DNA of 64,000 nt. It comes from Asticcacaulis sp. EMRT-3. Its GTDB lineage: Bacteria > Pseudomonadota > Alphaproteobacteria > Caulobacterales > Caulobacteraceae. The stretch is taken from the NCBI RefSeq assembly GCF_030027245.1, contig NZ_JASERT010000001.1, positions 388,501 to 452,500 on the forward strand. Reading direction: 5' to 3'. The notes below the pieces were generated by a model. It did no database searches. It was not told where the DNA came from and was given only the letters and a program-made list of their open reading frames with translations. Below are positions 22,250-31,027 of this stretch, piece by piece (within the stretch, counting starts at the first letter, position 1; each line of letters starts with the position of its first letter). The position numbers were made by a program, and so were the translations under genes.

Positions 22250-22366
22250 CTAGAGCGGTCTGCATTCTGATTGAATCGGTCAAAGGAATGCAATCCGCTC
22301 TTTATTTTACGTTTTTCCGCATCTCGCATTCAATTTGTAAGTCAAATTAAACGCTCGTTGCTCTAG
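22250..22366. repeat. 117-bp CTAGAGC-ended repeat, copy A
   Basis: Starts CTAGAGC and ends GCTCTAG. Near-identical in sequence and equal in length to 28418-28534. Inside, GAGCGG--TGCATTC pairs with GAATGCA--CCGCTC, and AATTTG with CAAATT. The final CTAG contains the TAG stop codon of the minus-strand gene at 22363-23499. Confidence 0.9.
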
Positions 22367-23499
22367 GCTTTACGAAACGGCGACGCCTCGGCCACCAGCA
22401 TCTCCATCTGTTCGCTGACCGCTTCGCGCTCGGCGGCCAGAAAGCGTTCCACGGGGATGCGCAGGCGTTTGTCGCGGATATAGTGGGCCGAATAGACGGG
22501 GTGCGGCAGGTAGCCACGCGACAGCTTATGCTCGCCCTGCGTGCCCGCCTCAACGCGCTTCAGGCCACGCGCAATAGCGAAGTCGATGGCCTGATAATAG
22601 CAGACCTCGAAATGCAGAAAGGGCACGTCGATCAGCGTACCCCACTGGCGGCCATATAACGTGTCGTTGCCGATGAAATTGATGGCGCCCGCCACCGCCT
22701 CGCCATGCTGATAAGCGAAGACAAGCGCGATGCGGTCGCGCATCGTATGCAGGATGCGCGAAAAGAAAGCGCGCGTCAGATAGGGGCTGCCCCATTTGCG
22801 GTCATAGGTGCTTTCGATAAAGGCATAGATATGATCCATGTGGCGCTCATTCAGCTCATCGCCGGTCACCCACCTTAAATCAACGATTGACTGAACATCG
22901 CGCCGTTCACGTCGGATCACCTTGCGGCGGTTGGAAGAGAGCTGGGCCAGAAACGCATCAAAGCTGGCATAACCGGGATTATCGAACCAGAACTGCTGAT
23001 CCTGCCGCAGCAGCATCCCCATCTCGCCCATCATCTGCCATTCGCCTTCCGTCGGGAAGGTGATGTGCAGCGAAGACAGTGTGTTGCTGTCACACAGTTT
23101 GATCGCCGCCTGCGCCAGGGCCTGCCGCACCTCCGGATCGGGCGAGAGAAGACGCGGGCCGGTCACCGGCGTGAACGGGATGGCGCCTTGCAGCTTGGGA
23201 TAATAATCGCCGCCCGCCTGTTCATAGGCGCGCGCCCAGGCATGGTCGAAGACATATTCGCCCATCGAATGATATTTGACATAGAGCGGCATGACCCCGC
23301 GCACCACACCGCCTTCATCCTTCAGCGACAGATGCACGGGCTGCCAGCCACTTTGCTGATCAACGCAATGCGTCGCTTCAAGTGCTTCCAGAAAGGCGTA
23401 TGATGTAAAGGGGTTATCGTCGTCTCTTAAACCATCCCATACAGTTTCGCCGATCTCGTCGATACGGTTGTGCAGGGTCAGGCTCAGAGCTGTGTTCAT
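22363..23499 (-). CDS. GNAT-like / FemAB-related acyltransferase (COG3146 type)
   Basis: 378 residues of the family once called DUF482, related to GNAT and FemAB peptidyl-transferases. Typical parts: NPFTSYAFLEALEATHCV near the start, GVMPLYVKYHSMGEYVFDH, RRKVIRRERRDV in the centre, and ARGLKRVEAGTQGEHKLSRGY near the end. The reaction is not known; N-acyl transfer is inferred. The ATG at 23499 is used. The TAG stop codon is supplied by the end of the 117-bp repeat. It lies 40 bases downstream of the peptide transporter gene, on the same strand... the transporter's stop is at 23539. Confidence 0.85.
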   Translation of the reverse strand: MNTALSLTLHNRIDEIGETVWDGLRDDDNPFTSYAFLEALEATHCVDQQSGWQPVHLSLKDEGGVVRGVMPLYVKYHSMGEYVFDHAWARAYEQAGGDYYPKLQGAIPFTPVTGPRLLSPDPEVRQALAQAAIKLCDSNTLSSLHITFPTEGEWQMMGEMGMLLRQDQQFWFDNPGYASFDAFLAQLSSNRRKVIRRERRDVQSIVDLRWVTGDELNERHMDHIYAFIESTYDRKWGSPYLTRAFFSRILHTMRDRIALVFAYQHGEAVAGAINFIGNDTLYGRQWGTLIDVPFLHFEVCYYQAIDFAIARGLKRVEAGTQGEHKLSRGYLPHPVYSAHYIRDKRLRIPVERFLAAEREAVSEQMEMLVAEASPFRKA

Positions 23500-28279: not shown

Positions 28280-28417
28280 GACCAGTAGTCCTTGATTGTC
28301 AGGCGCACCACTTCAGAACCGCATCGGCGGGCGCGAATAAACGAGAGGGGCGGAAAATACTCAGGAACGCGGCGAAGTCAAGGGGCGCAGGGCGAGATTT
28401 CCGGTTTTAGAGCGCAT

Positions 28418-28534
28418 CTAGAGCGGTCTGCATTCTGATTGAATCGGTCAAAGGCATGCAACCCGCTCTACATTTTACGTTTTTCCGCATCTCGCATTCA
28501 ATTTGTAAGTCAAATTAAACGCTCGTTGCTCTAG
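28418..28534. repeat. 117-bp CTAGAGC-ended repeat, copy B
   Basis: Same length, ends and internal pairings as 22250-22366, with about four to five base differences. The terminal CTAG again contains the TAG stop of the adjacent minus-strand gene (RNase R, stop at 28531-28533). An extra TAGAGCGC just upstream (28408-28415) may be a remnant of another end. Confidence 0.9.
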
Positions 28535-30969
28535 CGCTTCTTCTTCTTTTTGCGCAGGTTCTTTTCACCGAATTTGGCACCGCCGGGTTTCGGTCGGCCT
28601 TGTGAAGGCGGGCCATTTTTACCCAGCGGGCCTGAGCGCGCCTGATGGCCAAGCGCGCGCTTGCGTGCGCCCAGCCGTGTACGCGGCGCGGTGGGATCGG
28701 GCGCTTCGGGTTCGCTGATCGCCTTGAACACCAGCCCGCCGGTGACCGGCATGGCCTCCATCAGCTCGACCTCGATCTTTGAGCCCAGCCGCCAGCGCAG
28801 ACCGTGGCGCTCACCGATCAGGGCGTGCTGCACATCATCATGCACATAATAATCGTCCTTCAGCGACGAGACGGGGATAATGCCGTCAGCCCCCGTTTCG
28901 GCCAGCTTGACGAACAGGCCAAAGCGCGTGACGCCAACGATACGGCCTTCAAACGTCGCCCCCACCTTGTCGTGCAGGAAGGCGGCGATATAGCGCTCGA
29001 TCGCCTCGCGCTCGGCCTGCATCGACCGGCGCTCGGTGGCGGTGATGTGCTCGGCCGTGTCGCCCAGAGTCTTGATTTCGTAATCGGTCAGGCCGTCATC
29101 ACCCAGCTTCAGCGCGCGAATCAGCGCCCGGTGCACCACCAGGTCGGCATAGCGCCGGATCGGTGAGGTAAAATGGCCGTAATGGTTGAGATTCAGCCCG
29201 AAATGGCCGAAATTCTTCGGCGAATAATGGGCCTGCATCTGGGTGCGCAACACCACCTCATTGATGATTTCGGCGTTCGCCCCGTCCTTTTGCCCGTCGA
29301 GCAAGCGGTTGAAACGCGCCGTGGTCGGCGGCTCGCCCTTGTTCCACGGCAGGCCGAGCGTGGCCAGAAAATCGGCCAGATTGCCGACCTTTTCCATGCT
29401 GGGCGTTTCATGGACGCGATAGATCAGCGGCGTCTTGTGCTTTTCCAGCTCCTCGGCGGCGCTGACATTGGCCTGAATCATCATCTCTTCGATCAGACCG
29501 TGCGCATCCAGCGACACGCGCCGTTCGATCTTTTCGACATTGCCCTCGGCATCGAGATAGACGCGGCGCTCCGGCGAATTGATGTGCAGGGGCTGGCGGA
29601 TGTTGCGTCCGCGCGTCAGGCAGGCATGGGCGGCCCACAGGGGCTTCAGCAGGCTGTCGAGGATCGGGCCGGTCTTGTCGTCGGGCTGACCATCAATGGC
29701 GGCCTGCGCCTGTTCGTAGCTCAGCTTGGCCGCCGAACGCAGCAGACCGCGCACGAACTTGTGGCCGATCTTTTTACCCTCGGCATCGAACACCATGCGC
29801 ACGGCCATCGTGGCGCGGTTCTCGCCTTCCTGTAACGAACAGAGGCCTGAAGACAGCACATGCGGCAGCATCGGCTCCACCCGGTCGGGGAAATAGGTCG
29901 AATTGCCCTTGTCGCGCGCCTCGCGGTCGAGGCTGGAGCCGGGCGTCACATAGTGGGCCACATCGGCAATCGCCACCCACACCACCCAGCCGCCGGGATT
30001 TTTCGGGTCGTCATCGGCATGGGCATAGACGGCGTCGTCGTGATCCTTGGCGTCGGCGGGATCGATGGTGACGAAGGGCAGGTCGCGCAGGTCCGTGCGC
30101 TTGCCAAGACCGGGAGCCTTGGCGGCTTTCGCCTCGTCCTCGGTGCTGGTCTGGAAACCGACCGGCAGGCCATGACTGTGGATAGCCATGACCGAGGCGA
30201 TGCGCGGGCTGTCTTCCTTACCGATCACCTCAACGACGCGGGCCGGGCGCGGGCCATAGCGGTGCAGGCCGCCAACCGGTGCCGCCAGCACCACATCGCC
30301 GTCTTCCAGCGCTTCCAGACCCGGCCCGGTCAGGGAAAAGCTGTTCTTTTCCTTGCGATTGACCGATTCGAGGCGGATTTCACGCTTGCTCTTGCGCACC
30401 ACGCCGACTATGCGCGGCGCGTCCTGATCGAGGATCTTGATCAGCCTGGCCACCCAGCCATCGCTGGTTTTTTCAAAGCGCACATAGAGGCGGTCGCACA
30501 TGCCGGGCGGCTTTTGCTGGTCGCTTGTCTTCAGTGGGGCCAGACGGGCCAGTGGCGCGGGGCTGTCATTGTTATGTGCGCTAACGCTTCGCTCCTTGAG
30601 CGCGTCTTTGCTTGCGCTAACGCTTCGCTCCTTGAGCGCGTCAGGCCTCCCCCAGCGTACCCACAGCTCGCCATCGACATCGCGCTCCACCACTTCGGCC
30701 ACGCCGGTTTCGGGCAGGGCGCCCAGTGCGCCAAAGGTCTTGCGACCGCTTTTCATTAGCTGGCCGCTTTCGGCCAGCGCCTTCAGCCTTTGGCGCAGCA
30801 GGCGGCGATCATCGCCCTTCAGCCCGAACTGGCGGGCCAGATCGCCGACATCGAGTTCACGCATGGCCCCAATGGCGTCGAGCAGGGTCTGGTCGTCGGG
30901 CAGGCCGCGCGAATTATGCTTTGAAGCGGTTTCGGGGATGGCTTTGGGCTTGCGCGGTAATTTGATCAT
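28531..30969 (-). CDS. rnr: Ribonuclease R
   Basis: 812 residues from the ATG at 30969 (an upstream in-frame start at 31014 is possible; neither has a strong RBS). A processive 3'-5' exoribonuclease that degrades structured RNA. Order: winged-helix-like N-terminus; cold-shock domains; RNB catalytic domain with DPADAKDHDDAVYA (metal-binding Asps) and SPIRRYADLVVHR; S1 domain (GRIVGVTRFGLFVKLAETGADG in pieces); and Lys-rich tail KKKKKR ending at a TAG inside the 117-bp repeat. A 12-residue unit DALKERSVSA(SK/HN) is tandemly doubled near residues 110-133, within the first cold-shock region. Confidence 0.95.
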   Translation of the reverse strand: MIKLPRKPKAIPETASKHNSRGLPDDQTLLDAIGAMRELDVGDLARQFGLKGDDRRLLRQRLKALAESGQLMKSGRKTFGALGALPETGVAEVVERDVDGELWVRWGRPDALKERSVSASKDALKERSVSAHNNDSPAPLARLAPLKTSDQQKPPGMCDRLYVRFEKTSDGWVARLIKILDQDAPRIVGVVRKSKREIRLESVNRKEKNSFSLTGPGLEALEDGDVVLAAPVGGLHRYGPRPARVVEVIGKEDSPRIASVMAIHSHGLPVGFQTSTEDEAKAAKAPGLGKRTDLRDLPFVTIDPADAKDHDDAVYAHADDDPKNPGGWVVWVAIADVAHYVTPGSSLDREARDKGNSTYFPDRVEPMLPHVLSSGLCSLQEGENRATMAVRMVFDAEGKKIGHKFVRGLLRSAAKLSYEQAQAAIDGQPDDKTGPILDSLLKPLWAAHACLTRGRNIRQPLHINSPERRVYLDAEGNVEKIERRVSLDAHGLIEEMMIQANVSAAEELEKHKTPLIYRVHETPSMEKVGNLADFLATLGLPWNKGEPPTTARFNRLLDGQKDGANAEIINEVVLRTQMQAHYSPKNFGHFGLNLNHYGHFTSPIRRYADLVVHRALIRALKLGDDGLTDYEIKTLGDTAEHITATERRSMQAEREAIERYIAAFLHDKVGATFEGRIVGVTRFGLFVKLAETGADGIIPVSSLKDDYYVHDDVQHALIGERHGLRWRLGSKIEVELMEAMPVTGGLVFKAISEPEAPDPTAPRTRLGARKRALGHQARSGPLGKNGPPSQGRPKPGGAKFGEKNLRKKKKKR
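30577..30642. repeat. In-frame tandem repeat inside rnr
   Basis: A 30-base sequence occurs at 30577-30606 and again at 30613-30642 (period 36 bases, 12 codons). Each copy begins TGCGCTAACGC and ends GAGCGCGTC, with GCGCT/AGCGC ends able to pair. It encodes DALKERSVSA twice. Because the unit is a multiple of three the reading frame is kept. Confidence 0.85.
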
Positions 30970-31027
30970 GCAGTCAATGTAGGCGAATCGAGGCTCCGCC
31001 GCCATCCTGCCCATATAATATTTAGAG

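Follow-up and report, generated by a model that had tools for sequence, protein, structure and literature searches.

The 64,000-nucleotide stretch of the Asticcacaulis sp. EMRT-3 genome analysed here (contig NZ_JASERT010000001.1, positions 388,501 to 452,500; hereafter the window) carries two near-identical 117-bp segments, each of which contains the stop codon of an adjacent gene. They are very probably copies of a non-autonomous miniature element of the IS630 family (Tc1/mariner-type), with a GANTC-bearing body resembling the Caulobacter CcrM-associated intergenic repeats (CIR), that is inserted in trans at YTAR (Y being C or T, R being A or G), preserves stop codons, and is found in excess at stops mostly because such copies survive. 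An IS630 transposase would act in trans on a 111-bp unit, and insertion into the TA of YTAR, mostly YTAG, would duplicate this TA, a duplication seen in a diverged relative. YTAR can be read as a stop from either strand, and GAGC opens the unit at both ends; either end would therefore regenerate a UAG (TA + G). Insertion at a stop codon would then leave the protein unchanged, also where one YTAR is common to two convergent genes. The excess at stop codons would then mostly reflect the survival of harmless insertions.

The first copy (22250-22366, plus strand) consists of CTA, the 111-bp unit (22253-22363) and TAG, and the second (28418-28534, plus strand) of CTA, the unit (28421-28531) and TAG. 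As described in the preliminary description of this DNA, both start with CTAGAGC and end with GCTCTAG, and they are 97% identical over 117 bp. The mobile unit is 111 bp long, and YTA and TAR on either side of it belong to the target; each stop is therefore composed of T-A from the duplicated target and G from the element. In copy 1, the right-hand TA (22364-22365) and the last base of the unit (22363) form the TAG stop of a minus-strand gene (22363-23499) encoding a 378-residue protein, and in copy 2 the right-hand TA (28532-28533) and base 28531 form that of a minus-strand gene (28531-31014) encoding 827 residues, both open reading frames ending exactly there, as had been claimed. The 827-residue protein is RNase R (TIGR02063, score above cut-off), as first proposed, while the 378-residue protein reaches no curated cut-off and returns a sub-threshold FemAB-type match only, its earlier GNAT-like label being plausible but unproven. 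The body of the unit folds into two arms on either strand (z −3.1 to −7.6). In copy 1, the left arm (22252-22301, plus strand) is a long imperfect hairpin, AGAGCGG...CCGCTCT, whose start resembles the IS630 terminal repeat, in register, and which has near its apex the GAATC (22273-22277) of a GANTC, CcrM-type methylation site, found at 28441-28445 in the left arm of copy 2. The right arm (22326-22354, plus strand) folds as GCATTCAATTTG-taagt-CAAATTAAACGC. The unit is non-coding and too short to encode a transposase, and its two ends have in common just the short perfect repeat GAGC/GCTC. A known RNA family was rejected, Rfam returning 0 matches. Each copy also contains a weak promoter-like match (9 of 12) on the minus strand (22304-22333 and 28472-28501), and copy 2 is immediately preceded at 28405-28417 by TTTTAGAGCGCAT, apparently the beginning of a further TAGAGC-type repeat.

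The genome (3,316,911 bases in 4 contigs), which named relatives of its RNase R put in or near Asticcacaulis, contains 120 right ends, defined by the last 37 bases with at most 3 mismatches, while the reversed pattern is found 0 times. Of these 120 places, 100 were listed. The 77 stretches (602 kb) analysed around 104 positions comprise 102 full-length copies in 90 sites, distributed as 80 single copies, 8 double and 2 triple arrays. Side by side in an array (e.g. L011, L024, L030), copies have one CTAG (or CTGG) in common, and some arrays mix two subfamilies. The left-arm GAATC is retained in 95 of the 102 full copies and a GANTC in 96; the base preceding the left TAG is C in 56, T in 43, G in 2 and A in 1; and the right end finishes with G in 96 and A in 6, the right-hand CTAG being nearly fixed. 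Copies differ by ~1 private change per 101 columns, and the spread is therefore recent. Across 40 relatives, two divergent matches were found in all, one each in G022 and G024. An exact pattern scan of wider genome contigs gave 0 matches, although near records may be left out of such a scan, and a strict two-arm pattern gave 0 in 120 genomes of the order, this pattern being rigid, modelled on another species' family, and one that missed the element in its own genome too.

The ends of the unit point to its origin. IS630 copies of the same genome start with TAGAGCGTTCCGCGAT[T/G]AGGTTGAATC, to which the left end is identical at 18 of 27 positions, and those of other species start, for example, with TAGAGCGGGATGACGTTTAATTGAATCGGG, to which it is identical at 22 of 30 bases, in register. 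When similarity to six IS630 ends was considered, shuffled sequences matched the mean of the left end in 6 of 20,000 trials and that of the right end in 101 of 20,000. Of the own-genome IS630 copies, one is located at TTAG, one at CTAG and a third, which is interrupted and whose two pieces were taken as one, at CTAA. A shared-position pattern matches the genome at 97 places, of which 94 are element copies and 3 are IS630 copies; this is an illustration and not a proof, because the pattern was drawn from both. The unit is thus short, multi-copy, devoid of a transposase and bounded by IS630-like terminal repeats, and a TA target duplication is directly visible at one site of a related element in the relative G006; by its sequence features, it is classed as an IS630-type miniature inverted-repeat transposable element with a CIR-like two-arm layout.

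The element resides in YTAR, mostly CTAG or TTAG; within window positions 1-64000, CTAG is very rare, with 12 occurrences in 64 kb, 4 of these within the two elements. Other Asticcacaulis-type genomes contain a two-arm relative of the element whose left end is the same, and the locus downstream of RNase R (rnr) allows its filled and empty sites to be compared. G006 is filled and reads CTGTTA[unit]TAAAAGT (CTGTTA[unit]TAAAAGTAAATG), whereas G001, with the same flanks, is element-free and reads CTGTTAAAAGTAAATG (site CTGTTAAAAGT); G011 and G023 are likewise empty. For this diverged element, the comparison is a clean TA duplication with the native A kept, which sets it apart from insertion 3' of TAG. 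The latter would be expected from an IS200/IS605- or REP/RAYT-type element, with single-stranded insertion 3' of YTAG and a right-hand CTAG of its own, as might be suggested by the two hairpin arms, the nearly fixed right-hand CTAG, an orientation bias, the family-specific right-hand base in other species and the single RAYT gene of the genome. Yet in the empty site of the related element TTA is followed by A and not by G, the ends of the unit resemble IS630 repeats, and the sole Y1_Tnp match (L088) has no element copy in the 3.3-kb locus read around it. Elements of this type lack a target duplication and have a cognate Y1 transposase gene flanked by the repeat, and this assignment, which was rejected, is very improbable. 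For the 117-bp family itself, empty sites were compared at two of the eight double-stop junctions, where the TAG ends of one element stop a convergent gene pair. At L028:3501, the first of the two, G022 lacks the element and both genes use a single CTAG; at the second (L028:9503), G022 and G007 lack the element, and the two genes share a TTAG in G022 and a CTAG in G007. These element-free YTAG sites are consistent with TA duplication for the 117-bp family.

At 42 of the 90 sites the terminal TAG is the stop of a gene, 7 of the 42 being double stops. Ten further sites add 5 at stops, one of them with two stops; 3 of the 10 are 48-bp single left-arm units, TA-flanked, and 2 of these 3 are at stops. 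In total, 47 of the 100 scored sites are at a stop and 8 of 100 stop two convergent genes; left unscored were 8 partial copies from the initial set and, among 12 copies added later, 2 devoid of a right TA. With 120 right ends against 0 reversed, and with 42/90 and 5/10 sites at stops, the coincidence of repeat and stop is not due to chance. For the enrichment test, elements were excised in silico and stop sites compared with intergenic YTAG sites within the same gene orientation. Convergent regions gave 25:17 (stop:intergenic) for elements and 37:75 for unoccupied sites (odds ratio 2.98, p 0.0034), tandem regions 17:19 and 38:155 (odds ratio 3.65, p 0.001), and the pooled odds ratio was 3.27, TTAA being absent from the background while two TTAA elements, both at stops, were counted. 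A regression with target-motif and orientation covariates gave 3.37 (p 9e-5), on 77 of the 90 elements and 473 sites, after removal of sites in coding sequences (CDS), of background sites at the edges of stretches and of elements outside CTAG/TTAG. The background was the stretches around the copies rather than the whole genome, and class counts carry gene-finder errors because the gene finder was our own hexamer script. The preliminary description had postulated a mobile repeat at CTAG-like sites enriched at stops, which is borne out (47/100 sites, odds ratio about 3.3), and the search of the whole genome with the 117-bp sequence that it called for yielded the 120 right ends with the stop enrichment present.

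It had also said that the element supplies the stop codon of its neighbour; that this was a stop which the gene lacked is not supported by the relatives. The RNase R protein has a basic tail with a final R in 28 of 28 loci of relatives (24 genomes, four named records repeating four of them), with TAG, TAA or TGA as stop; an element within the RNase R stop codon was found in none of the 28, and the related element of G006 lies ~10 bp beyond the stop. When 19 stop-site genes were queried jointly in three relatives, the best 30 of 63 matches became loci, and because of this 8 of the 19 genes had no readable end. For the remaining 11, the window 378-residue gene included, 31 of 31 complete orthologue ends lie at most 4 residues away, 29 of them at most 2, and none is longer by more than 5 residues; a 32nd end is cut by the end of its locus. 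The element might instead truncate genes, its own TAG serving as a new stop at every in-frame insertion. The TAG carried at both ends would suggest this, as would the 378-residue protein, which is shorter by one residue than its 3 TGA-terminated orthologues. With the orthologue ends described above, with native common YTAG stops at element-free sites, and with an in-frame YTAR already being a stop, such truncation is hardly credible, and it was disfavoured for the 12 genes tested. An in-frame TAR terminates translation, and YTAR does so on either strand; provided that the target was YTAR, a gene whose stop is now the TAG of the element had therefore terminated at that point before the insertion. 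The comparison of orthologues has thus delivered native stops and, in the related G006 element, a target duplication, while the exact native stop of the 378-residue gene is not settled, because its protein is one residue short of orthologues ending with TGA. As far as sequence comparison can tell, the stops are native, and the element preserves stops and does not invent them.

Why, then, are stops in excess? The fraction of occupied YTAG sites in the sampled stretches is 0.40 (convergent) and 0.31 (tandem) at stops, 0.09 and 0.06 at 1-40 bp past a stop, and 0.02 in CDS. With 2% occupancy in CDS and 6-9% just past stops, selection is strong. The first description offered a choice between preferential insertion and survival; the data tilt towards survival as the source of the greater part of the effect. 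Active targeting would mean that, over and above the YTAG motif, insertion is guided to sites of translation termination by the transposase or by a host factor. It is favoured by the odds ratios that persist within gene orientation and after motif correction, by the stop excess already seen in young copies, and by other TAGAGC-type repeats in G010 that begin exactly at a stop occupied by the element in its own genome. Nonetheless, the same data bear the mark of the strong selection just described, and convergent sites 41-150 bp from a gene end are occupied at 0.28, near the stop value. We know of no IS630 element with targeting to termination sites, and we consider this mechanism unlikely. A third possibility, somewhat less likely still, is that the element is kept at gene ends for its usefulness there: for a gene devoid of a terminator, it may form a 3' end, in both directions, or a structure for RNase processing. 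Stable folds on both strands and the 8 sites supplying the stops of two convergent genes would agree with such a role, but no terminator-like signal was found by a sequence scan of both window copies, for which reason a terminator function was set aside, and, relative to the gene, the two orientations of the element are about equally frequent (23 left, 26 right). Survival of harmless insertions in the stop-preserving IS630-type scheme probably explains most of the stop excess.

Several observations weigh against this scheme. An autonomous copy with exactly these ends was not found, and the right end matches IS630 less well than the left end. The direct TA duplication is limited to one site of the related family. 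The target is asymmetric in element orientation (TTAG 41 versus CTAA 4), which a symmetric TA inserter does not predict, and the head-to-tail orientation of all 10 tandem arrays is not explained by simple insertion into CTAG. At L028:3501, G007 is element-free with TGA for one gene, its two stops lying apart and with no common YTAG, and G010 holds the other TAGAGC-type repeats, whose start coincides exactly with this stop and may point to a preferred site. On the minus strand from ~1277 of the G010 locus L294, these repeats are partly nested at the TAG equivalent to L028:3501, apparently an independent occupation of one stop. Lastly, stop sites compared with sites more than 40 bp from gene ends still gave odds ratios of 2.48 (p 0.023) and 3.26 (p 0.003), and copies at stops and intergenic copies are not distinguished by their private differences (p 0.44); slow survivorship alone is therefore not proven.

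Related repeats occur elsewhere. In other species, pattern matches of the related family were found at 27 places in 9 genomes, and 9 of these places were not scored; the 18 with both ends readable comprise 5 at stops, 9 intergenic and 4 in predicted CDS, and the right-hand base is mostly A (16 of 18). A loose two-arm regular expression returned 1 match among 80 named Caulobacterales loci (L117) and 0 in each of 5 simple shuffles. From base 2635, L117, a record outside the genus (Proteobacteria metagenome-assembled genome isolate CAULO1), displays a two-arm CTAGAGC...GCTCTAG element with GAATC. In the own genome, short palindromic repeats with TAGAGC/GCTCTA ends adjoin an element copy cut at base 91, from which point the sequence is IS630-like (L093:1178-1391), and 43-bp solo palindromes YTAGAGC...GCTCTAR occur at L038, L040, L054, L067, L080 and L086, several with a GANTC core. 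These palindromes are apparently minimal members of the same superfamily.

Known systems share some of these traits. CIR elements (Chen & Shapiro 2003) have a two-arm structure, and a review table lists no terminal inverted repeat for them and a question mark for target site duplication, mobility being left open (PMC2229807); they are described as strictly intergenic (PMC10969869). In the available text of both sources, CIR are ~110 bp long and intergenic, with TA termini, a linker joining two hairpin arms and, at the loop of one of these, GANTC; the 111-bp unit has the two inverted-repeat arms and linker, the ~110-bp length and the GANTC in the loop region of one arm. In contrast, its ends are IS630-like, a related element shows a TA duplication, and it is often located at stops, CIR1-CIR4 being compared by their published description and not by sequence. 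RUP of Streptococcus pneumoniae, as summarised in PMC3049150 and PMC2229807, is 107 bp long with ~110 copies, a TA target and ends resembling a resident IS630 element; the 111-bp unit has two separate arms, and roughly one scored site in two coincides exactly with a stop. The pneumococcal BOX repeat resembles the unit in containing a gene's stop codon, in 36 cases, without strong evidence of truncation in the part of PMC3049150 that treats it; it is modular, its terminal repeats are similar to ISSpn2, and no target rule explaining stop preservation is described in that part. RU-1 is reported to produce fusions removing a stop (excerpt of PMC2759123). ISY100 duplicates TA (excerpt of PMC2170065), and IS630 prefers TA in CTAG (Tenzen & Ohtsubo 1991, by its title as cited in PMC2170065); TA duplication is common to these insertion sequences and to the unit, but they are autonomous and encode a transposase. 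Among titles and abstract openings, with most subscription papers outside reach, a literature search returned no paper in which a repeat of this kind inserts so as to preserve stops.

For CIR-type repeats, whose target duplication and mobility the sections of the review at hand leave open (PMC2229807), the empty site and the IS630-like ends offer an answer, namely TA duplication at YTAR. A broader proposal is tentative, and we would sooner doubt than adopt it: the element may seek, or have been shaped to colonise, stop codons, turning TAA/TAG into TAG and un-overlapping convergent genes with a common YTAR, stops may be its main safe harbour in a compact genome, and related alphaproteobacterial TAGAGC-type repeats may follow the same rule. 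A target that is a stop on both strands, matched to an end that supplies TA + G, is a simple rule for filling stop codons without harm to the protein. The same rule would separate overlapping convergent genes, and the alternative between targeting and survival becomes directly testable.
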